DNA from: Acidobacteriota bacterium
GTDB lineage: Bacteria; Acidobacteriota; Terriglobia; Acidiferrales; UBA7541
Length of the DNA: 64,000 bases
Reading direction: 5' to 3'
Assembly (NCBI GenBank): GCA_013289585.1
Contig: JABCZR010000001.1
Location: 186,001 to 250,000 of the forward strand
Under the pieces are notes generated by a model, which saw only the letters and a list, made by a program, of their open reading frames with translations, did not search any database and was not told the origin of the DNA. Below, in pieces: positions 45,401-59,936 of this stretch. How positions within the stretch are numbered: position 1 is the stretch's first letter; each line of letters opens with the position of its first letter. The position numbers and the translations under genes are program-made.

Positions 45401-46071
45401 CGTTGGTACTGACAGATCTGGGAGATACCCTGGCTCGGGCAGGGCGCGGAGCGGAAGCGGACAATCCCCTGCAGGAGGCTCAAGGATTAGCACGCGATTT
45501 GAAAAATGAAAGTCTGCAGGCCGCCATTCTGAATGCCCAAGGGAATGTACAGTTCTATCGCGGCGACTTGCAGGCTGCCAAGGCCCTCTACGCTCGGGCG
45601 TCAGGAAAGGCGGCTAAGGGCACGGAGCGCGACAAGGTCTTGGTCTCCAGATTAAATCTTGCCAAGGTGGCCCTCGCGGAGGGGCGCTCGCAAGCCGCCA
45701 TCCGTGACTTGCAGTCGCTATCCCAGGAAGCTGATAAACAGGGGCTGAAGTATCTCGGTCTGGAAGCTTCAGTGGACATGGCCGCCGCCACGGTGAGCAA
45801 CAAGGATTATTCACGCGCCCGGCAAGAGCTGGAAAAGGAGTTGCGAGTCAGCGAAAAACTTGGGCTTAGGCTACAAACGGCGCGGATTCATTATCTGCTG
45901 GGAAACGTCCTGCGGCTCACCGGAAATACAGACGAAGCCGCAGGCCACTACCAAAAGACGTTGAGCCTGCTTGACGAAATGAAAAAAGAATCCGGCGCAG
46001 AACACTTGGTGGATCGTTCCGACATGCGCGCAATCTATGAAGAAGCTTCGCGCAGGTCCCATGGCGCGTAG
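42430..46071 (+). CDS. Membrane Ser/Thr protein kinase with FlgO-like and TPR domains
   Basis: Hanks-type kinase of 1213 residues. A Pro-rich N-terminus (1-90) precedes the kinase domain (about 97-355): glycine loop LGEGGMGTVYKA, invariant K in VALKLI, catalytic HRDLKPQNVM, DFGLA and the GTIEYMSPEQ activation segment, all intact. One membrane segment follows (about 377-395). A periplasmic region has a beta-sheet domain of the FlgO/TolB-N type (LAILPFRNASTDLSIDWLGPSLADML), then at least a dozen TPR repeats to the end. This order is very common in Acidobacteriota. Target unknown. Start ATG 42430, without a strong ribosome site. Confidence 0.9.
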   Translation: MEKHKPQKTPPETPGVSGPAGLRAPAKGDSSASDFPREGEGATFPGGPPTPPIDSNPGAGDVTFLDPFPTPAAGKPRLSNLYPKQTQLQPGDVLGGRFEILEVLGEGGMGTVYKALDREVDHLVALKLIRPEMAVLPAILARFKQELLTARQVTHKNVIRIHDLSEVDGVKFITMEFLEGCDLRRLLLDKGKLPPEQAVEIIRQVCLALDAAHSAGVIHRDLKPQNVMQDKQGRILVMDFGLARSLESDGMTQTGALLGTIEYMSPEQAMGKELDARSDLFTVGLIFYELLTCKMPFKADTAMASLLKRNQERALPASEIDASIPKGLSDIVSKCLERDLNLRYQSAQEILTDLDAWQGKRPISASLVMPPSAVKREIPWKWISAGTLAVVLAVAGWELSGKLTSKTASKAAAGPEVSLAILPFRNASTDLSIDWLGPSLADMLSTDVGQSAHLRTISPDRMHQVLSDLRITPGTTIDSTMVERIAQFSNADTVVWGQYVKFGEQIRIDATLLDLKNNRRAPLKIEAASEKEIPRTVDGLAELIRKNLSLSADVMKELKASSFQPTSKSVLALRDYNQSVQMLREGKNLEAIKTLQAAIQEDPQFALAYSRLAETESALGYDTEAENHSRKALDLSQQLPVAEKYLIEANHARVMKDNKKGIEAYENLAKILPDSADVQYALGSLYVETGDIDKARAQFSKILQADPKNIKALWQMGVVEIRNNNPQAALDPLNKGLSLALQVDNQEQKALLLQALGVSYRLLNKPEEAMRNYQDSMEISRRLGLKRLLAVSLVEMALVQESLGKPDVALASYGEALKLQTEIGIKKEVGDTLIDMGVVYQDRGQFDKALEVYKESLQIQRDTGDESYQALCLSNIGFVYLSKGDTDNAFTYLQQSLQLRQKLNVPGDIADSLHGIGQAYAATGQYDQALASYLKALDLWRKVGDSRGAALGSHQIGLVFQYQGRYGAALSSMQDAVKSLRELKDYGIDTALVLTDLGDTLARAGRGAEADNPLQEAQGLARDLKNESLQAAILNAQGNVQFYRGDLQAAKALYARASGKAAKGTERDKVLVSRLNLAKVALAEGRSQAAIRDLQSLSQEADKQGLKYLGLEASVDMAAATVSNKDYSRARQELEKELRVSEKLGLRLQTARIHYLLGNVLRLTGNTDEAAGHYQKTLSLLDEMKKESGAEHLVDRSDMRAIYEEASRRSHGA

Positions 46072-46128
46072 ACAGACATCCAGGTAGCAATCGCCCTGGA
46101 TCTCCGGCCAAACTGAGATTTGAAGACG

Positions 46129-48756
46129 CTAATTGTTTTTCACGGTTGTGGTAATGCTGATCGAGTTGTCTTGATCAGTGTTTCGATTCAGACCACCTGC
46201 CGTAGCGGTGTCAGTCAGCACTTTGTTTGGCGGCGTGTTGGACGGTACTTGGACGGTAATCACCAATCCCGCGCCGGTAAAGGTGTTTAGAGGTGCCAAT
46301 GAGCCGATATTGCAACTGATCGGAGTGCCGCTGGCCGTTGCTACCCCAATCGTGCAAGCCGTTCCCTTCTTCGGGAAGGAGCACAAACCGCCAAAGCAGG
46401 AAACTTTGTCAAAGAATGCACTCAGGACTGTCGTTCCTGCCGGCGCCATGTCGGTGAGAATCACGCCTGAGGCAACGTTTTTCTGGGAAAGATTGACGGC
46501 GGCGATGAGGTAGGTGAGCGCGGACCCGGGTTTGACCTTTGCCGGTGCGACATAGAAGAGGTCAATGTCCACAGGCTGATCCACGACCGTATAGGGAACG
46601 GATGCAGGCAAGCCCATGTTGCCGGCAACGTCCGTGGGCCCAACCACTGTATAGCTAAAGCTGCCGGCTGCGGAGGTCGCGACCGGTTGGTTTGAGAAGG
46701 CCGCGGTTAGACCCGCTGCGCTTGAAGAGCCGCAGGTGGCGAGTCCAGAGGCAAGCCCCCCTCCCAATGGCAGCGGATCAGTGCACGTATAACTGGCAGT
46801 CACATGCTGGTTGATGAGATAAGAGTTCGGAACGCCGTTGTTGGTTGTGGGCGCGGGTGACAACGTGGGCCCCGAAGAAATAATGGGCTTGGTAAGATCC
46901 ACGTTGATGGTCAGGGAGTTGAAGCTTGTGGACCAATTGCCGGCCGAGTCTTGCGTGAACTTCAGCTCTTCGGTGGTGGCGCAATCTGTAGTGAAGTAGT
47001 GGACTTGGTGGGTAGACCCATCGGCGAACGGTCCCAGAGTGGCTGGGTTGGGTCCGAAAGACGATTGTTGCGTGTTGGTAAGCGTGGGAGGACAGGCCAT
47101 AGGATTGGGAATGACCGTGTCGCTGGCGATGGGGAGATCTGTCGGATGCAAATTCGGCTGGTCCGCCGGCAAGTTGTCGACACCATAGGTGATGCTAGTC
47201 ACGGGCGGGTCGGTCATATTATTTGGATTGGGGACCGGCAGCAGTGGCGGATTACCAGTAAATGTTCCCATGGGGTTAGCGGTGTTAGTCCAGCCGAATT
47301 GGTTCACGAACCCTGTAACGGTAGTCGTCGGTGGAATCAGGTTGCTGTAGATGACCCCAGTCGAGTTCGTACTCGCGCCACCTCTACGACCCGTGTATTG
47401 TCCAGGCCCGGTAAAAGACACGAGAGTGTTCTGTGGGCAGGACTTGCCGAATTCGGGCTCACTCGCAGGAAACGTGCAAGCTCCGCCCGTCCAATCGTCG
47501 GTAGCTTCAGTGCCGCCGAAGATCGTTCCAGGGGCAAAGGTCGGCGCGTCAAAGACTGCTGAGAGCAGGATATTCCTAATGCTGGACTGCGGACACTTGT
47601 CGCCAGTCGGTGTGTCGCCCGGGGAGAGAGTGCAGACTTGCCTTTTTGCGGCGCAGTTGCCGTTTGCGCCGTTGAGGGGGATGCACACCGTTGTGGCAAA
47701 GGGAGTTCCGTTCACGAACGCCGGCCAATCTGCGGGAGTAATCTGTCGATTCGAAACGAAGGGAGTCGCATTTGGGTTGGCATCGATGGTGTTGGACGCA
47801 TTGGAATAATCGAGAACATATTGGTCGCCGTTGTTATTGGCGAAATCCGGGTTGAAGGTGAAAGTCTGAGTCGGAGTGCCGTTAATCGGGGTGCCCATCT
47901 GCTGGCTTTGCGTGGAAGTAAAGCTCCAACTCAGGATGTCCTGGTTTTCGAAACCGAGGCCGGTAGCCGCAGTGAAACCTATGAAGGCATCCTGGCTTGG
48001 GTCAAGGCCGAGGCTAGCGAGGTCGAAGCTAGACGATAGAACCTGCTGAGCGTCCAGCACAATCGTCAGCTGCCCGGGGCATACCTCAACTTCACAGCTG
48101 CCCGGCGGCGTGTAGGTGATAACGGCGGTATGTACACTGCCGTCCGCGAGCTGAATAGGAGGAGTGAAATTGACGCTCGGGTCCATAACACCAAAGTTGC
48201 AGAAAGCGTGATCGGCGTTGTTCGCAGCGGCACCGCAACTCTGGATCCCAACCTCGTTTGCGCTGATATCGTTGTTTGGGCCGGGCCCAGGGTTGTCAAA
48301 CGTGTCGAATTCCACTGCTACGCTATGAGTGAGGCCCTGATAGCCGATGGCGCCCCCACCAGAAGTAAGCGGGTCACCGAGAGCGAGACTGCCGCTTGTA
48401 CCGTTTGGGAAGGATCCGTTTTGAACCACGAAGGCAATCCCGTCGGCGGCGCCAAGGCCGCCAGGATTGGTAAACTGAAACGTGAAAGTGGTCGAAAATC
48501 CACGCGCCAATGACAAGGACGTCGCGTACCAAACGGTGCTGTCCTGGCCAGTTGTAGCGGGAGTAAGCCGCAGGACCTGCGTGTCGCCGACGCTCACCAC
48601 CGCCGCGTTGCCGTTGATTCGCAATCCCGCCGTCGAGTTGAAATTAGGGAACGAAATTGTTTGCTGGGCATGTAGCGACTGGCTGCCCATGCAAACGAAA
48701 CAGCAGAAAACAACTACTGGCACCATTGGGCGCAATTTCAATCCAAAGACTTTCAT
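46129..48756 (-). CDS. Secreted L-type lectin domain protein
   Basis: A large exported protein of 875 residues. A signal peptide (MVPVVVFCCFVCMGSQSLHAQ) is followed by an L-type (legume-like) lectin fold, residues about 32-270, with TFQFTNPGGLGAADGIAFVVQ, the VAVEFDTFDN strand and Asn/Asp that usually bind Ca2+ and sugar. A cysteine-containing middle region with proline-rich loops follows, with Ig-like repeats at about 600-720. The end (DLFYVAPAKVKPGSALTYLI) resembles a DUF11-type conserved repeat. Such proteins bind surface or plant polysaccharide, but no catalytic motif is seen. It converges with the kinase-TPR gene. Confidence 0.78.
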   Translation of the reverse strand: MKVFGLKLRPMVPVVVFCCFVCMGSQSLHAQQTISFPNFNSTAGLRINGNAAVVSVGDTQVLRLTPATTGQDSTVWYATSLSLARGFSTTFTFQFTNPGGLGAADGIAFVVQNGSFPNGTSGSLALGDPLTSGGGAIGYQGLTHSVAVEFDTFDNPGPGPNNDISANEVGIQSCGAAANNADHAFCNFGVMDPSVNFTPPIQLADGSVHTAVITYTPPGSCEVEVCPGQLTIVLDAQQVLSSSFDLASLGLDPSQDAFIGFTAATGLGFENQDILSWSFTSTQSQQMGTPINGTPTQTFTFNPDFANNNGDQYVLDYSNASNTIDANPNATPFVSNRQITPADWPAFVNGTPFATTVCIPLNGANGNCAAKRQVCTLSPGDTPTGDKCPQSSIRNILLSAVFDAPTFAPGTIFGGTEATDDWTGGACTFPASEPEFGKSCPQNTLVSFTGPGQYTGRRGGASTNSTGVIYSNLIPPTTTVTGFVNQFGWTNTANPMGTFTGNPPLLPVPNPNNMTDPPVTSITYGVDNLPADQPNLHPTDLPIASDTVIPNPMACPPTLTNTQQSSFGPNPATLGPFADGSTHQVHYFTTDCATTEELKFTQDSAGNWSTSFNSLTINVDLTKPIISSGPTLSPAPTTNNGVPNSYLINQHVTASYTCTDPLPLGGGLASGLATCGSSSAAGLTAAFSNQPVATSAAGSFSYTVVGPTDVAGNMGLPASVPYTVVDQPVDIDLFYVAPAKVKPGSALTYLIAAVNLSQKNVASGVILTDMAPAGTTVLSAFFDKVSCFGGLCSFPKKGTACTIGVATASGTPISCNIGSLAPLNTFTGAGLVITVQVPSNTPPNKVLTDTATAGGLNRNTDQDNSISITTTVKNN

Positions 48757-49002: not shown

Positions 49003-50580
49003 CTAGGAATACAGAACGCTGGTGTCCGCCGACAAGCCCGCAATCTCTGCAAGCGTATTGGACGGCCCCTGTACAACGAAGCGGCGATGATACAGCAACA
49101 GCGCCCGCAATCCCGCGAGTTCTTCACCACCGCCGGCCCTCCCCGGTCCCCCATGCAGGCAACTGGGTACCACATTGCCATGGCCTGTGTATTGGCTGGC
49201 AACCGACGAATCCACCACCAGGATTCGACCGTGCAGATCCCCGATTCCGAGTATTACGCTCTTTAGGAAGCCCGGATCGTTCGAAAAAACGGACGCGACC
49301 AGCGAACCTAGGCCGCGTCTCGCAATCGCGATCAGATTTTCCAGGCTATCGTAGGCCACCAGCGTCGCCGCGGGGCCGAACACCTCCACGTCGTGAACAT
49401 ACTTCGCTTCAAGCCCGTTCTTGCAGGCGAGCAATGTGGGCTGAACAAACGCGGATTTCTGCGCATCGGCCTCCAGTGGTTGAAATTTTTCATCTCCTCC
49501 GAACAGCACTTCGCATTCTTCCTTTAGCTTCCTCAGTCCTTCGAGGCAGGAGGATTGCTGCGCCTTATTCACCACCGGCCCGACTTTCACTTCCGCGTTT
49601 CTCGGGTTCCCCACTTTTAGCGAACTCAACCGCGCGCAGATCGCCTCCCCCACGGCTTTGAAATGTTGCCGCGGCACCAGCACGCGACGGATCGCCGTGC
49701 ACTTTTGCCCCGCCTTCAGCGTCATCTCCCGCACCACTTCTTTCACCAGCAGGTCAAACACCTCCGTCCCCGGTGAAATATCCGGCCCCAGAATCGCAGA
49801 GTTGATGCTGTCTGCTTCTACATTCACTCGTACCGACCGCCGCAGCACATTCTCGTGCCCTCGAATGCGCATGGCGGTATCGGCCGAGCCGGTGAAGGAA
49901 ACGATGTCGCTTTCACAGACGTGGTCGAGTAGATCCCGCGCGGAACCGCAAACAATCGAAATCGCTCCCGCCGGCAAAATTCCCGCTTTCACGATGTCTT
50001 CCACAATCCGCTGCGCAAGCCATGCCGTCGGCGATGCGGGTTTGACCACCACCGGAACTCCGGAGAGTAACGAGGGTGCGCTCTTTTCGCAGAAACCCCA
50101 CGCCGGAAAATTAAATGCGTTGATAAAAATAGCCGCGCCTTTCGTCGGCGCCAGGAAATGCTGCCCCGCGAATTCGCCCGTCTTCGATATCGAAACGGTG
50201 CCGCCTTCCTTGAGTATTTTCGATGCCCCAAGCGCTTTCCCGATCTTGGCGTAATACTTCATGGTGTAGATTGCGCCGTCGATATCGAACGCCCCGTCTG
50301 CCTGCGTGGTGCCGAGATTGAGAAGCGAGATGCGAAAATATTCCTCGCGGTTAGTCGTCATCACCTCGGCGATCTTTCCCAGCAGCTCCGCGCGCGCACC
50401 ATATGTCTGATCACGAAGCGCGGTTCCTCCTTGCGATCGCGCGTAGTCCAGCGCCGCTCCCACATCAATCCCTTGGGAAGAGATACGCGCCAATTCTTCC
50501 CCTGTAACTGGGTCGAACAGCGGCTCGCCGGCGCCGGTCCCCTCCTTCCATTGTCCAGATACATAGTTAGCCAGCTTCAT
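49003..50580 (-). CDS. boxD: 3,4-dehydroadipyl-CoA semialdehyde dehydrogenase
   Basis: NADP-linked aldehyde dehydrogenase that oxidises the ring-cleavage product of the box (benzoyl-CoA epoxidation) pathway. At 525 residues it matches BoxD and the N-terminal half of PaaZ. Key pieces: INAFNFPAWGFCEKSAPSLL, VSFTGSADTAMRIR, the glutamate in VNVEADSINSAIL and the nucleophile cysteine in LKAGQKCTAIRR. Divergent from the boxR-boxC-boxB unit with 281 bases between, so one regulator could control both. Context with boxC and boxB makes BoxD more likely than other ALDHs. Confidence 0.88.
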   Translation of the reverse strand: MKLANYVSGQWKEGTGAGEPLFDPVTGEELARISSQGIDVGAALDYARSQGGTALRDQTYGARAELLGKIAEVMTTNREEYFRISLLNLGTTQADGAFDIDGAIYTMKYYAKIGKALGASKILKEGGTVSISKTGEFAGQHFLAPTKGAAIFINAFNFPAWGFCEKSAPSLLSGVPVVVKPASPTAWLAQRIVEDIVKAGILPAGAISIVCGSARDLLDHVCESDIVSFTGSADTAMRIRGHENVLRRSVRVNVEADSINSAILGPDISPGTEVFDLLVKEVVREMTLKAGQKCTAIRRVLVPRQHFKAVGEAICARLSSLKVGNPRNAEVKVGPVVNKAQQSSCLEGLRKLKEECEVLFGGDEKFQPLEADAQKSAFVQPTLLACKNGLEAKYVHDVEVFGPAATLVAYDSLENLIAIARRGLGSLVASVFSNDPGFLKSVILGIGDLHGRILVVDSSVASQYTGHGNVVPSCLHGGPGRAGGGEELAGLRALLLYHRRFVVQGPSNTLAEIAGLSADTSVLYS

Positions 50581-50811
50581 GCGCCATCCTCCGGAGAGAA
50601 ATAAAGCTTACCCCTAATCAGTGGCATTCTCGAAATTCAAACGATCTTGGAGTATCATGGCATAATACTGCATACTCATGGAGTTAAGCTTCAACTCTTA
50701 CTCTCAGCTTTCCCTGGTCTGTAATTTCACATATCGCAATGCAAATAAAATACTTACAGCCCCAATGGACATAGATAATCTAGCTAGGTTGGGGAGCTCT
50801 TCCAAGTTCAC

Positions 50812-50846
50812 TTGACCGAGTGATGGGGAAATGTACTATACTGCAT
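50812..50846 (+). promoter_or_regulatory. Candidate boxR promoter with an ATACTGCAT element
   Basis: TTGACC (50812-50817) is followed by TACTAT at 50834-50839 (16-base spacer) or TATACT at 50837-50842 (19). The motif ATACTGCAT at 50838-50846 overlaps the -10 region and recurs at 50665-50673 near the boxD start. BzdR/BoxR-type regulators are known to use TGCA-containing sites, so this is a plausible operator. The promoter lies downstream of the first possible ATG, which argues for translation from 50862. Confidence 0.4.
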
Positions 50847-50861
50847 GTGAGGTCCAGCGGT

Positions 50862-51773
50862 ATGGCTACACCCACTGGCGTTGATTCCAAGCCCGCTCTT
50901 TTGCGTCGCGGCGTACCCTCGCGCGAGGATGCGTTTTTGCTCTTCGTCGGCACTCGCGTTCGCGAACTTCGTAACCGCCGCGGTATGACCCGCAAGGTGG
51001 TGGCGCAGGAAGCCGAAGTCTCGGAGCGCCATCTCGCACAACTGGAATCCGGCGAAGGCAATATCTCTATCGTGTTGCTGCGTAGGATCGCCACGGCCCT
51101 GAATATTTCGCTGACGGAGTTGTTCGCCCCTAGCGTGGAAGAACCTGCCGAAAAGGGGACGATCCGGCGCTTCCTCGAGCGCCTCCCCGCGAACCGCCTC
51201 GAAGATGTCTTGTTCCGTCTCAAGCGCGATTTCAGTAACGAAGAACTCGCACGCAGAACGCGCGTTGCCCTCATTGGGCTGCGCGGGGCTGGAAAGTCTA
51301 CGCTGGGATCCCGGCTCGCTCAAGAGAGCAATATCCCCTTTATCGAACTGGACCGCGAAATCGAAAAAGATACCGGAATGCCTTTGGCCGAAATCTTCTC
51401 GCTCTACGGACAATCCGGCTATCGCGCCATTGAAAAACGCACGCTCGAACGCGTTCTTCAGGAATCTGGCCGCGCCGTGATTTCTGTTGGTGGCGGCGTC
51501 GTTTCGGAAAAAGATACTTTCGACTATCTCCTGGCGAACTGTTACACCATTTGGATCAAGGCGCAACCCGACGAGCACATGTCCCGCGTCATTGCCCAGG
51601 GCGATTTTCGCGCTATGGCCGGTAGCAATCGGGCCATGGAAGACCTGCGCAGGATTCTCGAAGCGCGCGAGCCGCTCTATCGAAAAGCGGACATGGTTCT
51701 GGATACTTCCGGTTGCTCCGTCGAGGATAGTTTTTCTAGCTTGAAATCGGCATTGCAGGCTCATTTTCAGTAG
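50862..51773 (+). CDS. boxR: BoxR/BzdR-type regulator: XRE helix-turn-helix fused to a shikimate kinase-like domain
   Basis: Represses box genes and releases them when benzoyl-CoA binds its C-terminal domain, as known for BzdR. N-terminal XRE domain: FVGTRVRELRNRRGMTRKVV, ERHLAQLESGEGN. A linker follows, then a shikimate kinase-like domain: LIGLRGAGKSTLGSRLA (Walker A), ELDREIEKDTGM, ISVGGGVV and a lid with AREPLYRKA. I chose the ATG at 50862 because a promoter-like element lies at 50812-50842. The 303-residue length fits the family. Nine bases before boxC, so in operon with it. Confidence 0.87.
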   Translation: MATPTGVDSKPALLRRGVPSREDAFLLFVGTRVRELRNRRGMTRKVVAQEAEVSERHLAQLESGEGNISIVLLRRIATALNISLTELFAPSVEEPAEKGTIRRFLERLPANRLEDVLFRLKRDFSNEELARRTRVALIGLRGAGKSTLGSRLAQESNIPFIELDREIEKDTGMPLAEIFSLYGQSGYRAIEKRTLERVLQESGRAVISVGGGVVSEKDTFDYLLANCYTIWIKAQPDEHMSRVIAQGDFRAMAGSNRAMEDLRRILEAREPLYRKADMVLDTSGCSVEDSFSSLKSALQAHFQ

Positions 51774-51782
51774 GAGGCTTTT

Positions 51783-53465
51783 GTGGACGTCGCTGTCACT
51801 CAGGAATCCCAGCCAAAGCTCGAAGCCGTCGAGTTTCAAACGGATCCTTCCCGGTATAAACACTGGCGCTTGGCCTTCGATGGCCCCGTGGCCACCCTCA
51901 CCATGGATGTCGCCGAGGATGGCGGGCTCCGCCCTGGCTACAAACTCAAGTTGAATTCCTACGATCTCGGCGTGGACATTGAACTCCACGACGCGCTCCA
52001 GCGAATTCGCTTCGAGCATCCGGCGATCCGCACTGTGGTTATCGCCAGCGCAAAGAATCGCATTTTTTGCTCCGGCGCCAACATTTACATGCTCGGTCTT
52101 TCCTCGCACGCCTGGAAAGTGAATTTCTGCAAGTTCACCAATGAAACTCGCAACGGCATCGAGGATTCCAGCTCGCACTCCGGACTTAAGTTCATCGCCG
52201 CATGCAACGGAACAACCGCCGGCGGCGGCTACGAACTGGCGCTCGCTTGCGATGAAATCATTCTCATCGACGACCGCTCCTCCGCGGTCAGCCTCCCTGA
52301 GCTCCCCTTACTCGGTGTTTTGCCCGGTACGGGTGGACTCACGCGCATAACCGATAAGAGAAAAGTCCGCCGCGACCACGCCGACATGTTCTGCACCAAC
52401 CCCGACGGTGTCCGCGGGCAAAGAGCCAAGGACTGGCGCCTCGTCGATGAAGTCGTAAAGCCCCAGCGGTTCGCCGAGCAGGTGAAACAGCGCGCCCTGA
52501 AGTTGGCAGAGCAAAGCGATCGTCCCCTCAACGCAAATGGAGTTGCTCTTACCCCTCTGAAGCGCATCGTGGATTCCGCTGGACTCCACTACCAATATGT
52601 CGACGTGCAGTGCAATCGCGAAGCGCGAACCGCAACTCTCGTTGTCCGCGCACCGGAATCCCTCACCGAAGACACAGTAGAAAAAGCTCTTGCTGCCGGC
52701 GCCTCCTGGTGGCCTCTGCAAATGGCCCGCGAACTGGATGACGCCATTCTGGCCCTGCGCGCCAGTGAGTTGGATCTGGGTCTATGGATCGTCAAAACGT
52801 CGGGAAATGCAGACACCGTTCTCGCCATCGACGAATTCATCTTGAATCACCAGGACAACTGGTTCGTCCGTGAAGTTCTGGGAATGATGCGCCGCACCTT
52901 CGCCCGCCTCGATGTCACTTCCCGCTCCATCTACGCCATTATCGAACCTGGATCCTGCTTCGCTGGCACTCTCCTGGAATTGGCACTCGCTGCTGACCGC
53001 GTCTACATGCACGACGCCCAGGAAGGCGCAACCACTTCCTTCCTCGCTCTTTCAAAAATGAACTTCGGCCCTCTGCCGACGGTGAATCATCTAGCCCGCC
53101 TCGCAGCCCGCTTCTACCAGGACGAAGCGCAGCTCAAACTTTTGCACGACCAGATTGGAAAGAAACTTGCCCCCCGCGAAGCCGTCGACGCAGGCCTCGT
53201 CACCGCCGCGCCCGATGATCTGGACTGGGAAGACGAAATCCGCCAGGCCATCGAATCGCGCGCTTCACAGTCGCCCGACGCCCTCACCGGACTCGAAGCC
53301 AATCTTCGTTTCGGCCCTGCGGAAACCGTCGAAACGCGTATCTTCGGCCGTCTTTCCGCATGGCAAAACTGGATTTTCATTCGCCCGAATGCCGTCGGCA
53401 CAAACGGCGCCCTCAAAGTTTACGGCACCGGCGCGCCCGTCAAATTCAATTGGGAAAGAGTCTAG
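51783..53465 (+). CDS. boxC: Benzoyl-CoA-dihydrodiol lyase / 2,3-epoxybenzoyl-CoA dihydrolase
   Basis: Cleaves the ring of 2,3-epoxybenzoyl-CoA, giving the dehydroadipyl-CoA semialdehyde and formate. The 560-residue enoyl-CoA-hydratase-superfamily protein has the long BoxC form. SAKNRIFCSGANIYML and AACNGTTAGGGYELALACDEI form the oxyanion hole, and the C-terminal half (EIRQAIESRA, NWIFIRPNAVGTNGALKVYG) is typical of BoxC and absent from ordinary hydratases. Starts at a GTG with AGGAGG ahead. Followed after 42 bases by boxB on the same strand. Confidence 0.93.
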   Translation: MDVAVTQESQPKLEAVEFQTDPSRYKHWRLAFDGPVATLTMDVAEDGGLRPGYKLKLNSYDLGVDIELHDALQRIRFEHPAIRTVVIASAKNRIFCSGANIYMLGLSSHAWKVNFCKFTNETRNGIEDSSSHSGLKFIAACNGTTAGGGYELALACDEIILIDDRSSAVSLPELPLLGVLPGTGGLTRITDKRKVRRDHADMFCTNPDGVRGQRAKDWRLVDEVVKPQRFAEQVKQRALKLAEQSDRPLNANGVALTPLKRIVDSAGLHYQYVDVQCNREARTATLVVRAPESLTEDTVEKALAAGASWWPLQMARELDDAILALRASELDLGLWIVKTSGNADTVLAIDEFILNHQDNWFVREVLGMMRRTFARLDVTSRSIYAIIEPGSCFAGTLLELALAADRVYMHDAQEGATTSFLALSKMNFGPLPTVNHLARLAARFYQDEAQLKLLHDQIGKKLAPREAVDAGLVTAAPDDLDWEDEIRQAIESRASQSPDALTGLEANLRFGPAETVETRIFGRLSAWQNWIFIRPNAVGTNGALKVYGTGAPVKFNWERV

Positions 53466-53507
53466 GAACAGCTCTGGCATTGGCAAAGGTTCACGGGAGA
53501 ATTCGTC

Positions 53508-54932
53508 ATGATCAATTACACTGAAAAAATTCCCAACAACGTCGACTTGGGACGCGACCGCGTCCTCCAGCGCGCCCTCGAACATTGGCAGCCCGCCTAC
53601 ATGGGCTGGTGGTATGACATGGGCCCCAATGAAAGCCACAACTATGAAGTCTATCTGCGAACCGCCATCAGCGTGGAGCCCGATGGCTGGGCGCAGTTCG
53701 GCTACGTGAAGATGCCCGACTACCGCTGGGGAATTTTCCTCCAGCCGCGCGACGAAAAGCGCGAAGTGAATTTCGGCATTCACAAAGGCCAGCCCGCCTG
53801 GCAAGAAGTCCCCGGCGAATACCGCTCCACCTTGCGCCGCGTCATCGTCACCCAGGGCGACACCGAGCCAGCTTCCGTCGAACAGCAGCGCATGCTCGGA
53901 TCTTCCTGTCCCTCCATGTACGACTTGCGGAACATTTTCCAGGTGAACGTCGAAGAGGGCCGTCACTTGTGGGCTATGGTCTACCTCTTGCACCGCTATT
54001 TCGGCCGCGACGGCCGCGAAGAAGCCGAATCTCTCCTCGCCCGCCGCTCCGGCGACGCTGACAACCCGCGCATCCTTGGCGCCTTCAACGAAGCCACGCC
54101 GGACTGGCTCGCCTTCTACATGTTCACCTTCTTTACAGACCGCGACGGAAAATTCCAGCTCTGCGCCCTCGCGGAATCCGGCTTCGATCCTCTCGCCCGC
54201 ACCTGCCGCTTCATGCTCACCGAGGAGGCTCATCACATGTTCGTCGGTGAGACCGGCGTCGGCCGCATCATTCAGCGTACCTGTGAAGTAATGAAGGAAC
54301 ATAAAGTCGAGGATCCCGAGGATGTGCGCGCCCTCGGTGTGATCGATCTCCAGACGATTCAGAAATATCTGAATTTTCACTACAGCGTCACTCTTGATCT
54401 TTACGGTTCCGACGTTTCTTCGAACGCCGCGAATTATTTCACCAGCGGGCTGAAAGGCCGCTTCCGCGAAACCAAACTGGATGACGATCACGTTCTGAGC
54501 GAGGCCGAGTATCCGGTTTCTGAAGTCGTGGGCGGAAAGATCAAGACCAAGAACGTCCCGGCGCTGACGGCCCTCAACGAGCGGCTGCGCGATGACTATA
54601 TCGAGGAGATTGCCGATGGCGTGGCCCGCTGGCAGCGGGTCATTGATAATGCCGGTGTACCTTTCAAGTTGACCTTGCCGCATAAGGGTTTCCATCGCGA
54701 AATCGGCAATTTCGCCGGGCACTTCATCACCCCCGAAGGGGAAGTTTTGACGGAGGAAGCCTGGAAAAATCGCCAATCCCAGTGGCTGCCGGCTCCTGCG
54801 GATTATGCTTTCGTCCAGTCGCTCATGTGCGGCCGCGTCGTCGAGCTGGGTAAATTTGCCAACTGGATTGCGCCGCCTTCGCGCGGGATAAATAATCAGC
54901 CCTTGAATTTTGAGTACGTTCGCTTCAATTAA
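53508..54932 (+). CDS. boxB: Benzoyl-CoA 2,3-epoxidase, oxygenase subunit
   Basis: Di-iron oxygenase that epoxidises benzoyl-CoA with O2 and electrons from BoxA. The 474-residue length equals BoxB. Iron-ligand region TEEAHHMFVGETGVGRI is clear; NNVDLGRDRVLQRALEHWQP and YMGWWYDMGPNESHN are hallmark N-terminal stretches, and SVTLDLYGSDVSSNAANYFT and the C-terminal VVELGKFANWIAPPS complete the match. It lies after boxC. The BoxA reductase that must supply electrons is not in the window, so it lies elsewhere or is replaced. Confidence 0.95.
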   Translation: MINYTEKIPNNVDLGRDRVLQRALEHWQPAYMGWWYDMGPNESHNYEVYLRTAISVEPDGWAQFGYVKMPDYRWGIFLQPRDEKREVNFGIHKGQPAWQEVPGEYRSTLRRVIVTQGDTEPASVEQQRMLGSSCPSMYDLRNIFQVNVEEGRHLWAMVYLLHRYFGRDGREEAESLLARRSGDADNPRILGAFNEATPDWLAFYMFTFFTDRDGKFQLCALAESGFDPLARTCRFMLTEEAHHMFVGETGVGRIIQRTCEVMKEHKVEDPEDVRALGVIDLQTIQKYLNFHYSVTLDLYGSDVSSNAANYFTSGLKGRFRETKLDDDHVLSEAEYPVSEVVGGKIKTKNVPALTALNERLRDDYIEEIADGVARWQRVIDNAGVPFKLTLPHKGFHREIGNFAGHFITPEGEVLTEEAWKNRQSQWLPAPADYAFVQSLMCGRVVELGKFANWIAPPSRGINNQPLNFEYVRFN

Positions 54933-54995
54933 TCCCAGCTGCTGCATCTGCCCGTCCGCGATGGCCAGCGCATTCGCGGGATTTCTTCCGATACT

Positions 54996-55026
54996 GAACT
55001 GCTGTTCGTTTTCTGAACATCTGTTC
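54996..55026. promoter_or_regulatory. Paired GAAC/GTTC inverted repeats upstream of the TetR gene
   Basis: GAAC-TGCT-GTTC (54996-55007) and GAACA-TC-TGTTC (55015-55026) lie within 31 bases. The block CTGTTCGT(T/A)TT(C/T)TG is also directly repeated at 55002-55015 and 55021-55034, and a TTGACA-like box follows at 55035-55040. This is a plausible operator for the TetR-type regulator encoded next. Confidence 0.45.
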
Positions 55027-55100
55027 GTATTTTGTTGACAGATGTCCTCCGGCTGCGTAACTTTAGAGAGGTTGGTGCTGCGCGCCCCGAGGAGTCTGCA

Positions 55101-55823
55101 TTGTCGCAACGCAAGATCAGCAGCCGAATGAATGGCCGTGTTCAACGCCGCTATCTCGCACGCCGCCTGGAGATCCTCCGTGCCGCCGGAAAGCACTTTC
55201 GCACCGCCGGCTTTGCCGAAACCGGCATGCGCGACATCGCCGCCGCCGCCGATCTCTCTCCCGCCAACCTCTACAACTACTTCCAGGGCAAGCACGAAAT
55301 TCTTTTTTTCTGTCAGGACGTCACTCTCGATCGCCTGCTCGCTGCTCTCGAAAAATCTCGCCGTTCCAAAGCAAGCGCTGCTGAAAAACTCCGCCTGGTC
55401 GTCGTTTCCCACTTGTGCTGCGTGCTCGATGAAGTGGAAGGCTCAGCCGCGCACCTCTTGACCACCGCTCTTCCGCCCCGTCTGCAACAGCGTCTCGTCC
55501 TAAAACGCGATCGTTACGAAGAAGGCGTGCGCCATTTAATCGCAGCTGGCACACGCACCGGTGAGTTCGTCCCCTGCGATCCCGCTCTCGCCACGCGCGC
55601 TATTCTCGGAGCCCTGAACTGGAGCGTCCGTTGGTTCCATCCGGATGGCACCCTGACCGCCACCGAAATCGCCGAAGGCTTCGCCGACTATCTGATTCGC
55701 GGACTCCTTGCCAAACCGGATTCTCTCCCGCGCCGCTCTTATGCGGGAAAAATAAGACGCCCGCTCCACAAGCTTCCGCCAGGCGCCCGGAATTTGCATA
55801 CCACGCGACTTTCCGAGAGGTGA
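55101..55823 (+). CDS. TetR-family transcriptional regulator
   Basis: Ligand-responsive repressor. N-terminal helix-turn-helix: RRLEILRAAGKHFRTAGFAE, MRDIAAAADLSPANLYNYFQGKHEIL, a textbook TetR pattern. The C-terminal helical domain (about 75-215) would bind the inducer, probably an aromatic CoA ester given the context. A basic tail of 25 residues follows. I chose the TTG at 55101, which has GAGGAG six bases ahead; the ATG at 55128 has none, and the upstream part of the open frame is not protein-like. It lies between boxB and hcrC and ends four bases before hcrC, so it is in the same transcription unit. Confidence 0.85.
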   Translation: MSQRKISSRMNGRVQRRYLARRLEILRAAGKHFRTAGFAETGMRDIAAAADLSPANLYNYFQGKHEILFFCQDVTLDRLLAALEKSRRSKASAAEKLRLVVVSHLCCVLDEVEGSAAHLLTTALPPRLQQRLVLKRDRYEEGVRHLIAAGTRTGEFVPCDPALATRAILGALNWSVRWFHPDGTLTATEIAEGFADYLIRGLLAKPDSLPRRSYAGKIRRPLHKLPPGARNLHTTRLSER

Positions 55824-55826
55824 TTT

Positions 55827-56345
55827 ATGCTGATCACACTTCCAGCCGAATCCCAGAAATCTGCTCACATTCGAATTGCCCTGAACGGGGAACACGTCGA
55901 CGTCTCTTTCGCCCCCTACAAAACTTTGCTTGAAATTCTTCGCGAAGATCTCAGCCACACCGGCACCAAACACGGCTGCGAACTCGGCGAGTGCGGTGCT
56001 TGCGCCGTTCTTCTCGAAGGCAAACCTGTGCTCTCTTGCCTGGTCCTCGGGGTCGAGTGCGACTCGAGAAATATTCTGACCGTCGAAGGCCTCGGCCTCG
56101 AAGGCCATCTCCATCCTTTACAGGACGCTTTTGCCGATCTCGGCGCAGCGCAGTGTGGCTACTGCACGCCCGCAATTCTCGTCACGGCGAAATCCTTACT
56201 GGACGAGCATCCGCAAGCGACTCGCGATCAGATTCGCGCCGCGCTCTCCGGCGTTCTGTGCCGTTGCACCGGATATCTGCAGATTTTTGAAGCTGTGGAA
56301 GCTGCCATGGTCAAGATTGCTGAGCAAAACGCAGCAGCAAAATAG
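55827..56345 (+). CDS. hcrC: 4-hydroxybenzoyl-CoA reductase, 2Fe-2S gamma subunit
   Basis: Iron-sulfur subunit of a molybdenum hydroxylase-family enzyme. The first [2Fe-2S] site is CELGECGACAVLLEGKPVLSC and the second CGYC ... LCRCTGY, both complete with all eight cysteines. Length of 172 residues agrees with the family. The HcrB subunit downstream carries the extra cluster loop that identifies this enzyme as hydroxybenzoyl-CoA reductase rather than xanthine or CO dehydrogenase. Order is C-A-B. Confidence 0.9.
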   Translation: MLITLPAESQKSAHIRIALNGEHVDVSFAPYKTLLEILREDLSHTGTKHGCELGECGACAVLLEGKPVLSCLVLGVECDSRNILTVEGLGLEGHLHPLQDAFADLGAAQCGYCTPAILVTAKSLLDEHPQATRDQIRAALSGVLCRCTGYLQIFEAVEAAMVKIAEQNAAAK

Positions 56346-56388
56346 TTTCCAGGTGCGCGGCCACACCGCTTCGCACTTAGGAGGGAAG

Positions 56389-58905
56389 TTGCCGAATCAA
56401 AAATATACCCCGGATCGTCCAGCGAAGGATTCCCAGGCCAACGGAGAAGAACTCCGCGTCATCGGCGTCCCGCGCCGCCGCGTAGACGCCCGCGCCAAAG
56501 TCACCGGCCAAACCCGCTTTGCCGACGACATTTTTCTCCCCCGCATGGCTCACTGCAAACTCCTGCGCTCTCCGCATCCGCACGCGCGCATCCGAAGCAT
56601 CGACGCCTCCCGCGCCCTCGCGCACCCCGGCGTCTATCTGGTCCTCACCGGAAAAGATCTCCCCATCGAATACGGAATTCTCCCCGTCAGTCAGGACGAG
56701 CAAGCTCTCTGCGTCGATCACGTCCGCCACGTCGGCGATCCCGTCGCCGCCGTCATCGCCCGCGAAGAGCTCACCGCGTTCGAAGCGCTCGACCTCATCG
56801 ACGTCGACTATGAAATCCTCACCACCATCTCCGATCCCGAAGAGGCCCTCGCCACTCCCGAACCGCGCATCCACGATTACGGCGAAGAGGGCAACATTCA
56901 CAAACGCGTCGCCCTCGAATTTGGCGACGTCGAGAAATCCTTCGCCGAGGCCGACGAAATCTTCGAGGACATTTTCTTCTACCAGGGCAGCACCCATCTC
57001 CCCATCGAGCAGCACGCCGCCGTCGCCACAAAAGACCCCGACGGAAAACTGACCATCTGGTCCAGCACGCAAACCCCGCACTATCTCCACCGCGCTCTCG
57101 CCAAGGTCTTGAACATGCCGCCCGCGCACATTCGCGTCAGCGCCACTCCCAATGGCGGAGGCTTCGGCGGCAAAAGCGATCCTTTTAATCACGAAATCGT
57201 CGTCGCCAAAGCCGCCCTCCTGCTCGATCGCCCGGTAAAAATCTGTCTCACGCGCGAGGAAGTTTTTTATTGTCACCGCGGCCGCCATCCCGTCCTGATG
57301 AAATTCAAAACTGGCGTCAAAAAAGACGGCTCCATCACCGGCATGCATCTTCAAACTCTGATCGACGGCGGAGGCTACGGCTCCTACGGCGTCGCCAGCA
57401 CTTTTTACACCGGCGCGCTGCAGACCACCACCTACCACATCCCGCGCTACCGCTTCGCAGGCTGCCGTACCTTCACCAACAAGCCGCCCTGTGGCCCCAA
57501 ACGCGGCCACGGCACCGTTCAGCCGCGCTTCGGCCAGGAAGTGCAGCTCGATAAAATCGCAGAAAAACTCAAGCTTGACCCCGCCGAACTACGCCTCCGC
57601 ATCGTCGAAGCTCCCAATACCGTGACCGCGAATTATCTCCGCTTGAGCACCGTCAATCTTTCCGAATGCATTCGCCGAGTGGTGAAAATCTCCGATTGGA
57701 AAGAAAAATTCCGCAAACTCCCCGAAGGCCGCGGCGTAGGCATCGCCTGCTCCGCCTATCTCACTGGAGCCGGCCTCGCCATCTACTGGAACAAGATGCC
57801 CCATTCCGGCGTGCAGCTGAAACTCGACCGCGGCGGCGGTGTCGCCATTTTCTGCGGCGCCACCGAAATCGGCCAAGGCTCCGATGATGTTCTCGCGTCC
57901 ATCGTCGCCGAAGTTCTCGGCATCGACACATTTGACATCCGCCTCTTCACCGGCGACACGGATCTAGGCCCCGTCGACCTCGGCTCCTATTCCAGCCGCG
58001 TGACCATCATGGCCGGCAGCGCTGCATTGCAAGCTGCTGAGCGCGCTAGAGAATTGCTCGCCGAAGCCGTTGCCATTCGGCTGGAAGTGCCCAAAGAACA
58101 ATTGCGCTTCGCCGACAAACATGTTTTCGATTCCGTCGTGCCGGAAAGAAGAGTCCCCTTCCACGAAGCCGTCTGCCTTGCCGAAGCTCGCTTCGGCACC
58201 ATCGGCACCGTCGGCTCCTACACGCCGCCGAAATCTCCCGCGCTCTACAAAGGCGGCGGTGTCGGCCCATCGCCGACCTATTCCTATACTGCCGCAGTCG
58301 TCGAAGTCGCCGTCAATCCCGTGACGGGATGGATCACCGTCCCAAAAATCTGGATCGCCCACGACATCGGCCGCGCTCTGAACCCTCCGCTCGTCCGCGG
58401 CCAGGTCGAAGGCAGTGTCTACATGGGCCTCGGCGAAGCGCTCATGGAAGAACAGGAATTTCGCCGCCTACCTAAAAAACTCTCGCACGCCCTGGTGCAC
58501 AAATTCCCGTCCATGCTCGAGTATAAGAGCCCCACATCGCTCGACATGCCCGAAGTGGTCACCGAACTGGTGGAAGAACCCGACCCGCGTGGCCCCTTTG
58601 GCGCAAAAGAAGTCGGTCAAGGCCCGCTGCTGCCCATCATGCCTGCCGTGGCCAACGCCGTTTACGACGCCGTCGGCGTTCGCATCGACGAAGTTCCCAT
58701 CACACCCGAAAAAATCATGAAGGCGCTGGCGGAAAAAAGAGCCGGCCGCGATCCTCGTTGCGGACCCAGCCATTTTCCCCATGTCGACTGGCCTGAAGCC
58801 CTCCGCGTCCCTCCGCCCTGGGAAGGCGGCGACGGCAATGCCGTCAACGACGTGCCCCGCCCTTCGAAACCGCGCCCTGAGAAAGAAAAGGTGCTCAGCT
58901 CATGA
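56389..58905 (+). CDS. hcrA: 4-hydroxybenzoyl-CoA reductase, molybdopterin alpha subunit
   Basis: Catalytic molybdenum subunit. GGGFGGKSDPFNHE and FRSPHPHARI-like LLRSPHPHARIRSID bind the cofactor; PCGPKRGHG and the GAKEVGQGP stretch with its glutamate shape the active site. I chose TTG 56389 (GGAGGG in front, short spacing); a GTG at 56353 is possible. The open frame reaches back to 56131 but overlaps hcrC and is not protein-like there. Length of 838 residues exceeds the usual about 770 because of N- and C-terminal extensions. It overlaps hcrB by four bases. Confidence 0.88.
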   Translation: MPNQKYTPDRPAKDSQANGEELRVIGVPRRRVDARAKVTGQTRFADDIFLPRMAHCKLLRSPHPHARIRSIDASRALAHPGVYLVLTGKDLPIEYGILPVSQDEQALCVDHVRHVGDPVAAVIAREELTAFEALDLIDVDYEILTTISDPEEALATPEPRIHDYGEEGNIHKRVALEFGDVEKSFAEADEIFEDIFFYQGSTHLPIEQHAAVATKDPDGKLTIWSSTQTPHYLHRALAKVLNMPPAHIRVSATPNGGGFGGKSDPFNHEIVVAKAALLLDRPVKICLTREEVFYCHRGRHPVLMKFKTGVKKDGSITGMHLQTLIDGGGYGSYGVASTFYTGALQTTTYHIPRYRFAGCRTFTNKPPCGPKRGHGTVQPRFGQEVQLDKIAEKLKLDPAELRLRIVEAPNTVTANYLRLSTVNLSECIRRVVKISDWKEKFRKLPEGRGVGIACSAYLTGAGLAIYWNKMPHSGVQLKLDRGGGVAIFCGATEIGQGSDDVLASIVAEVLGIDTFDIRLFTGDTDLGPVDLGSYSSRVTIMAGSAALQAAERARELLAEAVAIRLEVPKEQLRFADKHVFDSVVPERRVPFHEAVCLAEARFGTIGTVGSYTPPKSPALYKGGGVGPSPTYSYTAAVVEVAVNPVTGWITVPKIWIAHDIGRALNPPLVRGQVEGSVYMGLGEALMEEQEFRRLPKKLSHALVHKFPSMLEYKSPTSLDMPEVVTELVEEPDPRGPFGAKEVGQGPLLPIMPAVANAVYDAVGVRIDEVPITPEKIMKALAEKRAGRDPRCGPSHFPHVDWPEALRVPPPWEGGDGNAVNDVPRPSKPRPEKEKVLSS

Positions 58906-59936
58906 TGCGCCTGCCCCTTTTCGAATTCCGTTCCCCACGCACGCTCGAGGAAGCCGTCCGCATCTTAGACGGCCAGGGTCCCAGCACCATGCCGCTCGCC
59001 GGCGGCACTGATCTGCTCCCCAACATGAAGCGCCGCCAGCAAGTCCCACGAACGCTCATGAGTCTTCGCCATGTCGAGAGCTTGCGCCATGTTCAACTCA
59101 GCGATTCCGGATCACGCCTCGGCGCGTGCCTCACCCTCACCGACATCGCGGAAGACCCCCGCTTTCGAAACGGCATGACCGCCCTTGCGCAAGCCTCCGC
59201 CCTGGTAGCCACGCCCCACATTCGAAACATGGCCACCCTCGGCGGCAACCTCTGCCTCGATACACGCTGCAATTACTACGACCAGAACTACGAGTGGCGA
59301 AAAGCCATCAACTTCTGTCTGAAGAAAGACGGCAACACCTGCTGGGTCGCCACGGGAAGCTCGAAATGCGTCGCGGTTTCTTCCACGGACACCGCGCCCG
59401 CGCTCATCGCCCTCGGCGCCCGCGTCCGCTTGTTCTCGCGCTCCGGCGAACGCGAAGTCGCCCTCGCCGATCTCTACAACAATGACGGAATCAACTACAT
59501 CAAACGACGTCCCGATGAAATCCTCGCCGAAGTCCTTCTCGATCCTCTCCACGGCTGGAAGAGCACCTACTGGAAACTGCGCCGCCGCGGTTCCTTCGAC
59601 TTCCCCGTCTTATCCGTAGCCGCCGCAGCGCGCTTTTCCACTCAGGGTGTGGTCGAAGATGCCAGAATTGTTGTGGGCTCTGCCGCATCACGACCGCTCG
59701 TTGCGGGCGAAGCGTCAAAATCTTTGTTGGGACGGTCCTTAAACCCGGAATCCATCGCCGAAGCTGCCGCTCTCGCCGCGCGCATCGCAAAACCGCTGGA
59801 CAACACCGATTTCGACATGACCTGGCGCAAGCGCGTCACCGCTGAATTCGTGACCTACGCTTTGCGCGAATTGCGCGGCAATGATATGCATGTCGAACGC
59901 GAGAGCGTGACGCGCCACCCGCTCCCCCAATCGTGA
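58902..59936 (+). CDS. hcrB: 4-hydroxybenzoyl-CoA reductase, FAD beta subunit with extra 4Fe-4S loop
   Basis: FAD subunit. PLAGGTDLLPNMK and TLGGNLCLDTRC bind FAD. An insertion of about 40 residues contains C123, C139, C147 and C156, which correspond, offset by one, to the four cysteines C122, C138, C146 and C155 that hold the extra 4Fe-4S cluster of the Thauera aromatica enzyme. This loop is specific to HcrB and is the main evidence for the name of the whole complex. In Thauera the cluster draws electrons from low-potential ferredoxin. 344 residues; starts within the end of hcrA. Confidence 0.93.
   Translation: MMRLPLFEFRSPRTLEEAVRILDGQGPSTMPLAGGTDLLPNMKRRQQVPRTLMSLRHVESLRHVQLSDSGSRLGACLTLTDIAEDPRFRNGMTALAQASALVATPHIRNMATLGGNLCLDTRCNYYDQNYEWRKAINFCLKKDGNTCWVATGSSKCVAVSSTDTAPALIALGARVRLFSRSGEREVALADLYNNDGINYIKRRPDEILAEVLLDPLHGWKSTYWKLRRRGSFDFPVLSVAAAARFSTQGVVEDARIVVGSAASRPLVAGEASKSLLGRSLNPESIAEAAALAARIAKPLDNTDFDMTWRKRVTAEFVTYALRELRGNDMHVERESVTRHPLPQS

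Follow-up and report, generated by a model that had tools for sequence, protein, structure and literature searches.

4-Hydroxybenzoyl-coenzyme A (CoA) reductase (HCR), a molybdenum-dependent member of the xanthine-oxidase family, is represented by the three-subunit HcrABC of Thauera aromatica (Protein Data Bank (PDB) entry 1rm6), and the oxygen-using box pathway for benzoyl-CoA is represented by the boxABCD genes and their regulator boxR in Aromatoleum and Burkholderia. Genes of both kinds stand side by side at positions 49003 to 59936 of a 64,000-nucleotide stretch of DNA (the window) from an Acidobacteriota bacterium, which corresponds to positions 186001-250000 of its contig C1 (JABCZR010000001.1), in a genome of 4.73 Mb that is 97.24% complete. 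By sequence, the HcrABC encoded here belongs to a widespread branch, termed class II below, in which the catalytic Glu that is kept in known HCR (class I, the Thauera type) and in the other relatives examined has been lost.

The T. aromatica enzyme is the best-scoring solved relative of both HcrA and HcrB. The window enzyme has the same domains in three subunits, matches it Cys for Cys in the four-Cys loop of HcrB and keeps the column of Tyr326, a residue that we take to line the substrate site of HCR; it differs in belonging to a sister clade, in scoring below all three equivalog cut-offs, in carrying Gln748 for E726 and P374-K375 for A356-M357, and in being encoded beside box genes. Set against the Aromatoleum and Burkholderia clusters, the likeness consists of BoxB, BoxC, BoxD and BoxR above their cut-offs, a divergent boxD and a predicted BoxR-type operator, and the unlikeness of a boxA gene found in neither cluster nor genome, the lack of a ligase gene in the cluster, and the addition of hcrCAB and a tetR gene.

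Two further systems come close in part. Ucdh, the urolithin C dehydroxylase of the gut bacterium Enterocloster bolteae, is an HCR-related reductive dehydroxylase of the xanthine-oxidase family, unlike the present enzyme in acting on a phenol not bound to CoA with NADH (PMC12771579; this and the other cited reports are drawn on from extracts of their text); it is compared here by description only. In SAR324 genome bins, BoxB, BoxC and a ligase and, separately, HCR have been noted in related genomes, but in the extracts of that report HCR is discussed as a side route towards 4-hydroxybenzoate and is not joined to the box pathway (PMC4782131). Among the matches listed in a search of open-licence literature, with subscription literature outside its scope, no title or abstract opening concerned an hcr-box cluster or Gln at this site.

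A Branch of HcrABC without the Catalytic Glutamate

Genes were called by NCBIfam curated cut-offs (scores are given as bits/cut-off), Pfam domains and PDB matches. The HCR models are the best match for HcrA (TIGR03194) and HcrB (TIGR03195), in both cases below cut-off (Table 1); for HcrC the HCR model comes only third, behind those of the glyceraldehyde dehydrogenase gamma subunit (178 bits) and XdhC (169 bits), all three below cut-off. Two class I HcrA that were tested pass TIGR03194 (1034 and 1002 against 995), whereas six class II HcrA from other loci score 793-881.

In the HMMER alignment with 1rm6, the motif GAKEASEG of the Thauera enzyme, which contains E726, reads GAKEVGQG in HcrA, with Gln748 in its place. 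Across 97 aligned HcrA rows this column holds Gln in 79 (77 genes, two of these class II rows being second copies), Glu in 17 and a gap in one (L187; loci are numbered L and genomes G throughout). Glu is carried by 1rm6, 11 class I sequences and five paralogues of this genome, and is also found in E. coli XdhA and PaoC and in the aligned 7dqx, 8uem and 1t3q. A second active-site motif is GPKRGHG in class II as against GAMRGHG, the exchanged pair lying just before the conserved Arg. The Tyr326 column holds Tyr in 79/79 class II and 12/12 class I rows and in 1/7 outgroup rows, two of which have gaps. Strong purifying selection on hcrA (ratio of nonsynonymous to synonymous substitution, dN/dS, 0.034-0.082) indicates that Gln748 is part of a working enzyme; for the hcr genes together dN/dS is 0.03-0.14 across genera, with dS saturated in the more distant pairs, and these values and cross-genus conservation rule out chance open reading frames (ORFs) or pseudogenes.

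A quick tree of HcrA, built from the 59 of 99 rows that remained once short or nearly identical class II rows had been set aside, with the Glu/Gln-type columns removed, puts class II (40 rows) on one side of a branch with a Shimodaira-Hasegawa-like approximate likelihood ratio (SH-aLRT) support of 99, as sister to 1rm6 plus class I (12 rows, SH-aLRT 98), and sets the two groups together apart from XdhA, PaoC and the paralogues (SH-aLRT 99). A single change accounts for the distribution of Glu and Gln in this tree, which includes one characterised HCR sequence and in which long outgroup branches were flagged by the program. HcrA is accordingly a sister, not a member, of the clade of characterised HCR. 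A preliminary description of the locus, made from the sequence, had held that an HcrB phylogeny outside HCR would speak against it; with the tree made on HcrA the outcome is mixed, since the branch adjoins the characterised clade while falling below the cut-offs and carrying Gln for Glu.

The same description had identified HcrABC by the four-Cys loop of HcrB, and only part of that argument stands. Cys123, Cys139, Cys147 and Cys156 are Cys in 138/138 aligned rows (some genes occur twice) and align with those of T. aromatica HCR, consistent with a predicted [4Fe-4S] cluster. The loop is not diagnostic, and was rejected as proof of HCR, because E. coli PaoB has four Cys in the same loop, in another spacing that matches only 3/4 HCR columns. 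An AlphaFold2 model of HcrA (mean predicted local distance difference test score 76.8, with the active-site loops at low confidence) finds 1rm6 as its best Foldseek match (E 2.2e-73), followed by other xanthine-oxidase-family members, which places the predicted fold in this family.

The nearest named relatives of HcrB, at up to 82% identity, come from metagenome-assembled genomes (MAGs) of 'Candidatus Acidiferrales' and other Acidobacteriota, and plasmids give only matches below 60%. One of these relatives (L198) shares its hcrA with G426, a genome assigned to the window's own genus. One MAG record titled Klebsiella pneumoniae (L148, CAMDRJ010000203.1) has an HcrB 63% identical to the acidobacterial protein; its title looks wrong.

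Association of hcr and box Genes

Among 40 stretches fetched around BoxB, some of them cut by contig ends, hcr genes of the window's own type lie beside boxB/boxC in 19, of which 15 are from the same genus, one (G434) is from the same family and three (G454, G460, G466) are from another family of the class. They occur in three gene orders: boxR-boxC-boxB, an insert in some cases, then tetR-hcrCAB; tetR-hcrCAB followed by boxRCB (G434); and boxCB-hcrC-hcrA-x-hcrB (the family of G454, G460 and G466). Seen from the side of hcr, 10 of 80 named HcrB loci contain a box gene (boxB or boxC in five), and these belong to Acidobacteriota, Pseudomonadota and Rokubacteria; one of the 80 (L198, JABCYZ010000008.1) is the same gene as one of the 40 (L103). 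In the betaproteobacterial loci L150 and L173, boxB-boxC-boxR faces a flavodoxin-like gene, a benzoate-CoA ligase gene and hcr genes, and G404 carries a Thauera-type hcr set near boxC, with no class II hcr found. The hybrid cluster that had been proposed for the window is thus borne out by the recurrence of its parts in several gene orders and three phyla.

At the level of whole genomes, BoxB is present in 21/29 of those with class II hcr as against 13/52 of the others (81 relatives; Fisher p = 5e-5, uncorrected for descent), class I and class II genomes being told apart by bits per aligned position and not by tree. The 29 include G438 and G376, in which hcrB is split or runs off a contig end, and G403, recognised by hcrC and hcrA. 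Of the eight class II genomes in which BoxB is missing, three (G433, G452, G376) have HGD-D proteins, another consumer of benzoyl-CoA. Of the genomes with BoxB, 32/34 carry class II hcr, class I hcr or the 4-hydroxybenzoate hydroxylase PobA, and the other two are 63% and 73% complete. Within the genus, PobA occurs in 1/18 genomes with class II hcr as against 12/18 others (Fisher p = 3e-4; confounded by descent), an inverse pattern that is suggestive only.

Other genes occur at such loci. In relatives from the genus, the space between boxB and tetR (e.g., L092 10666-12876) encodes a protein that looks by eye like an amidohydrolase (14 loci, no NCBIfam match), and in eight loci of relatives a PaaK-type CoA ligase; both are missing in the window, whose nearest relative (L094) keeps the amidohydrolase-looking gene. 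L113 (G434:C55) combines tetR-hcrCAB and boxRCB with genes that look by eye like those of beta-oxidation and with two subunits resembling benzoyl-CoA reductase (274 and 197 bits; cut-offs 421 and 487), so that putative reductive and oxidative dearomatisation genes lie side by side. Near class II hcr in L212, L160, L210 and L223 there is a salicylyl-CoA 5-hydroxylase-like monooxygenase (L212 scanned), hinting at other CoA-bound hydroxybenzoates.

The Box Pathway and the Electron Donor of BoxB

Q116, E120, E150, H153, D211, E240 and H243, which we take to form the diiron site, are all present in BoxB, and the seven columns are kept in 46/46 true BoxB rows. With BoxB, BoxC, BoxD and BoxR all above curated cut-offs, every feature of the box pathway that was tested apart from BoxA was found, and a benzoyl-CoA-consuming pathway downstream of HcrABC can be upheld. 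Neither TIGR02262 (ligase) nor TIGR03224 (BoxA) has a match inside the window, as the preliminary description had noted. That description suggested looking for a CoA ligase gene elsewhere in the genome, and one of the benzoate-CoA-ligase family does exist on contig C9 (G000:C9:5372-6904, TIGR02262 536/375 bits), unlinked to the cluster; benzoate and 4-hydroxybenzoate CoA ligases are reported to be hard to separate by sequence (PMC5852087). The genome contains no candidate for HGD-D, of the ATP-dependent benzoyl-CoA reductase family, and anaerobic use of benzoyl-CoA by that reductase was rejected on this ground, in a search that did not cover the class II Bam reductase. PobA likewise has no match at E 1e-60 (18 candidates scored).

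The same suggestion for BoxA was not borne out: TIGR03224 has no match in this genome, given whose completeness a gene in the missing part is possible, and a BoxA hidden elsewhere was rejected by both profile and protein searches. As a positive control, BoxA from a Mycetohabitans plasmid scores 694/459 bits with TIGR03224, and as a query against 23 genomes or records it matches itself and gives one weak partial match (G470, E 3e-15). The lack is shared by the group: no BoxA exceeds the cut-off in any of 80 box-bearing Acidobacteriota genomes (34 relatives and 46 of 66 other box-bearing genomes of the phylum), 11 of which have weak matches, the best at 142 bits over model positions 135-405, nor in any of the 10 genomes behind the named hcr loci, six of which have weak matches of at most 71 bits. 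The preliminary description had treated a lack of BoxA anywhere as grounds for refutation; BoxA was indeed not found, yet because it is missing from the box-bearing Acidobacteriota examined, its absence does not refute a box pathway here. It seems, therefore, that BoxB in this group is reduced by a donor other than BoxA, and a few box clusters of Proteobacteria have also been reported to lack BoxA (PMC10803450).

When the box loci were scanned for ferredoxin motifs, no neighbour recurred, and the two matches lay in unrelated places. In the Pseudomonadota loci L150, L160, L166 and L173, a flavodoxin/MioC-like gene lies beside a benzoate-CoA ligase gene, near boxR and hcr (L173 was scanned for both genes; ligase 753 bits), and its product might pass electrons to BoxB or HCR in these loci, for which no BoxA was found. 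In L177, L182, L185 and L194 (L182 scanned), a fused NuoE-NuoF-like gene near class II hcr encodes a protein that might carry electrons from NADH. Neither gene was seen in the window's cluster.

Gene Layout and Regulation

The genes named in the preliminary description were all found where it had placed them, and the box genes above their cut-offs. boxD diverges from boxR-boxC-boxB, which is followed on the same strand by tetR-hcrC-hcrA-hcrB (Table 1). Only three bases separate the tetR stop from hcrC, and hcrA and hcrB overlap by four bases, for which reasons tetR-hcrCAB looks like one transcript.

Table 1. Features of the hcr-box cluster, in window coordinates.
Feature	Position	Strand	Evidence and remarks
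boxD	49003..50580	-	NF008868 777/444 bits
Predicted BoxR-type operator ATGTACTATACTGCAT	50831..50846	.	2 mismatches to the published BoxR/BzdR consensus ATGCACTATAGTGCAT (PMC6449761, extract)
boxR, XRE-type helix-turn-helix and shikimate-kinase-like domain	50862..51773	+	NF006015 404/204 bits; ORF opens at 50820, start 50862 proposed
boxC, 2,3-epoxybenzoyl-CoA dihydrolase	51783..53465	+	TIGR03222 921/712 bits
boxB, benzoyl-CoA 2,3-epoxidase oxygenase subunit	53508..54932	+	TIGR03225 879/499 bits; PDB 3per E 3e-236
tetR-family regulator	55128..55823	+	PF17932, PF00440; ORF opens at 55032, start 55128 proposed
hcrC	55827..56345	+	PF00111, PF01799; TIGR03193 158/258 bits, below cut-off
hcrA, molybdopterin subunit, class II HCR-like	56377..58905	+	TIGR03194 790/995 bits, below cut-off; PDB 1rm6_A E 7e-173; start uncertain
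CAA codon in hcrA for Gln748, which aligns with the catalytic E726 of T. aromatica HCR	58618..58620	+	
hcrB, FAD subunit with predicted four-Cys [4Fe-4S] loop (C123, C139, C147, C156)	58902..59936	+	PF00941, PF03450; TIGR03195 260/405 bits, below cut-off; PDB 1rm6_B E 1e-52

The predicted operator is the sole match in the window at up to two mismatches, 0/100 shuffles give one, and a relative (L111) contains the exact consensus. Since it overlaps 50820-50861, boxR probably starts at 50862; this start and the tetR gene between boxB and hcrC are additions to the preliminary description. A BoxR above cut-off together with this operator points to regulation of the BoxR type, in which BoxR would control the box genes. 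Near the hcr promoter (54900-55150) no BoxR-type site occurs within six mismatches, BoxR control of hcr was rejected on this basis, and hcrCAB would probably be controlled by the TetR-family protein.

The adjoining part of the window (42430-48756) encodes what the translation, read by eye, suggests is a serine/threonine kinase with tetratricopeptide repeats, and also a legume-lectin-like protein containing DUF11; no link to aromatic metabolism was seen in either.

A Parallel Cluster with a Short BoxB-Like Protein

At 15 other loci there is a shorter BoxB-like protein of about 375 amino acids, below the BoxB cut-off and 33-38% identical to BoxB, which keeps the seven metal-site columns in 15/15 cases. 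Class I-kind hcr genes lie within the stretch in 10 of these loci (L234-L240, L244, L245 and L247, from G432, G440, G441, G445, G442, G400, G431, G073, G265 and G121), and both of the two HcrA tested are above the HCR cut-off. The gene set, not complete in every locus, comprises a TetR, crotonases, an aldehyde dehydrogenase, the putative diiron BoxB-like protein, CoA-transferase-like subunits and class I hcr, and may represent a further route in which a reductive dehydroxylase supplies an oxygenase.

A Proposed Pathway and Its Alternatives

We think it fairly probable that the cluster encodes a module in which class II HcrABC, as a one-way dehydroxylase, takes the hydroxyl off the para position of a hydroxybenzoyl-CoA derived from a plant aromatic acid, with 4-hydroxybenzoyl-CoA the most likely substrate, and passes benzoyl-CoA to a box pathway with a donor other than BoxA. 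The path from 4-hydroxybenzoyl-CoA through benzoyl-CoA to epoxidation is the best reading because a ligase-family gene lies elsewhere in the genome and no match to BoxA, HGD-D or PobA was found. A ligase encoded outside the cluster, for example on contig C9, would make 4-hydroxybenzoyl-CoA; electrons would pass from the cluster of the four-Cys loop by way of the FAD and the [2Fe-2S] clusters to the Mo, where the hydroxyl would be stripped; and BoxB would epoxidise the benzoyl-CoA with O2, BoxC cleave the ring and BoxD oxidise the semialdehyde. For class II HcrABC, what this scheme says of substrate, direction and electron path is inferred from homology with HCR. Gln in place of the catalytic Glu, together with the GPKRGHG motif, may disable the hydroxylating direction, and a block on benzoyl-CoA hydroxylation could benefit a cell that contains oxygen and high-potential acceptors.

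Several observations weigh against this proposal. HcrA, HcrB and HcrC are all below the HCR equivalog cut-offs, and it is the catalytic Glu of their protein family that class II has exchanged for Gln. At the seven box loci that belong to other families within the phylum (L125-L131), hcr does not adjoin; in 70/80 named HcrB loci the stretch examined contains no box gene (33/80 stretches are shorter than 12 kb); and in 5/29 class II genomes (G424, G438, G461, G464, G467) BoxB and HGD-D both fall short of the limits applied. The relation with PobA weakens over all 81 relatives (3/29 against 17/52, p 0.03) and, in a test allowing for descent, comes down to five independent pairs with a median p of 1. 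Neither BoxA nor a substitute donor was found, own-genome ferredoxins and FNR-type reductases not having been searched. Finally, Thauera HCR is reported to be oxygen-sensitive and ferredoxin-dependent (PMC12771579), which is awkward next to an oxygenase, so that the enzyme would have to tolerate oxygen or be used under micro-oxic conditions.

Of the other explanations, the one that survives best, unlikely as we consider it, is that class II HcrABC dehydroxylates a different substrate, whether 2- or 3-hydroxybenzoyl-CoA, a dihydroxybenzoyl-CoA or a free phenolic, and still yields benzoyl-CoA or an ester that the box enzymes can use. Two active-site signatures that differ from characterised HCR (GPKRG for GAMRG and Gln for Glu) would fit such a change, as would the non-CoA phenol used by the HCR-related Ucdh (PMC12771579) and the position of some class II loci near other aromatic-CoA enzymes, such as the salicylyl-CoA 5-hydroxylase-like protein of L212 (481 bits, below cut-off), but the Thauera-type hcr near boxC in G404 and the inverse PobA pattern in the genus, confounded by descent as it is, both point to 4-hydroxybenzoate.

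It is less likely still that class II HcrABC works as an oxidative Mo hydroxylase or dehydrogenase, on an aldehyde, an N-heterocycle or an aryl-CoA, with its product entering the box pathway. Most of the xanthine-oxidase family is oxidative, aldehyde oxidases of the PaoB type also have a four-Cys loop, two models of oxidative enzymes outscore the HCR model for HcrC, and a structural aligner ranks 1dgj (Z 40.4) beside 1rm6 (Z 38.5) for the HcrA model, which is thus not separated from the oxidases. Against this, the HCR clade is the sister group of class II, and all four loop Cys align with HCR in every HcrB row whereas PaoB falls short by one column. E1266 of mouse AOX3 is, as we assume from the family alignment, the residue equivalent to the catalytic Glu of HCR. 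Base-catalysed hydroxylation is reported to depend, for its start, on the hydrogen bond that E1266 makes to the Mo hydroxyl (PMC3864932), and on that equivalence the residue that starts hydroxylation is Gln in 79/79 class II rows.

It is very improbable that hcr and box only happen to adjoin in a catabolic island and serve the cell under different conditions: separate regulators, an hcr promoter without a BoxR-type site and the fact that HCR is best known from anaerobes would agree with it, but the linkage is repeated in several gene orders and three phyla, and HGD-D, which would allow benzoyl-CoA to be used without O2, has no match in the genome (class II Bam reductase lying outside that search).

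Implications

We extend the proposal beyond this genome only tentatively, and regard the extension as somewhat less likely than not: bacteria of many phyla may channel 4-hydroxybenzoate by way of benzoyl-CoA into a box pathway that lacks BoxA, in place of using PobA, and the two low-potential steps may share an electron carrier. The textbook donor of BoxB is in any case missing from the box-bearing members of the phylum examined. Pipelines that label class II enzymes as HCR or xanthine dehydrogenase may misstate their reaction or its direction. If the proposed dehydroxylation is correct, class II would be a clade-wide natural Glu-to-Gln variant of a residue regarded as indispensable in the xanthine-oxidase family, and the mechanism of Mo-dependent dehydroxylation would become directly testable. 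Reductive dehydroxylation of a phenolic acid would then not be restricted to anaerobes, and could feed an oxygenase pathway in soil Acidobacteriota.

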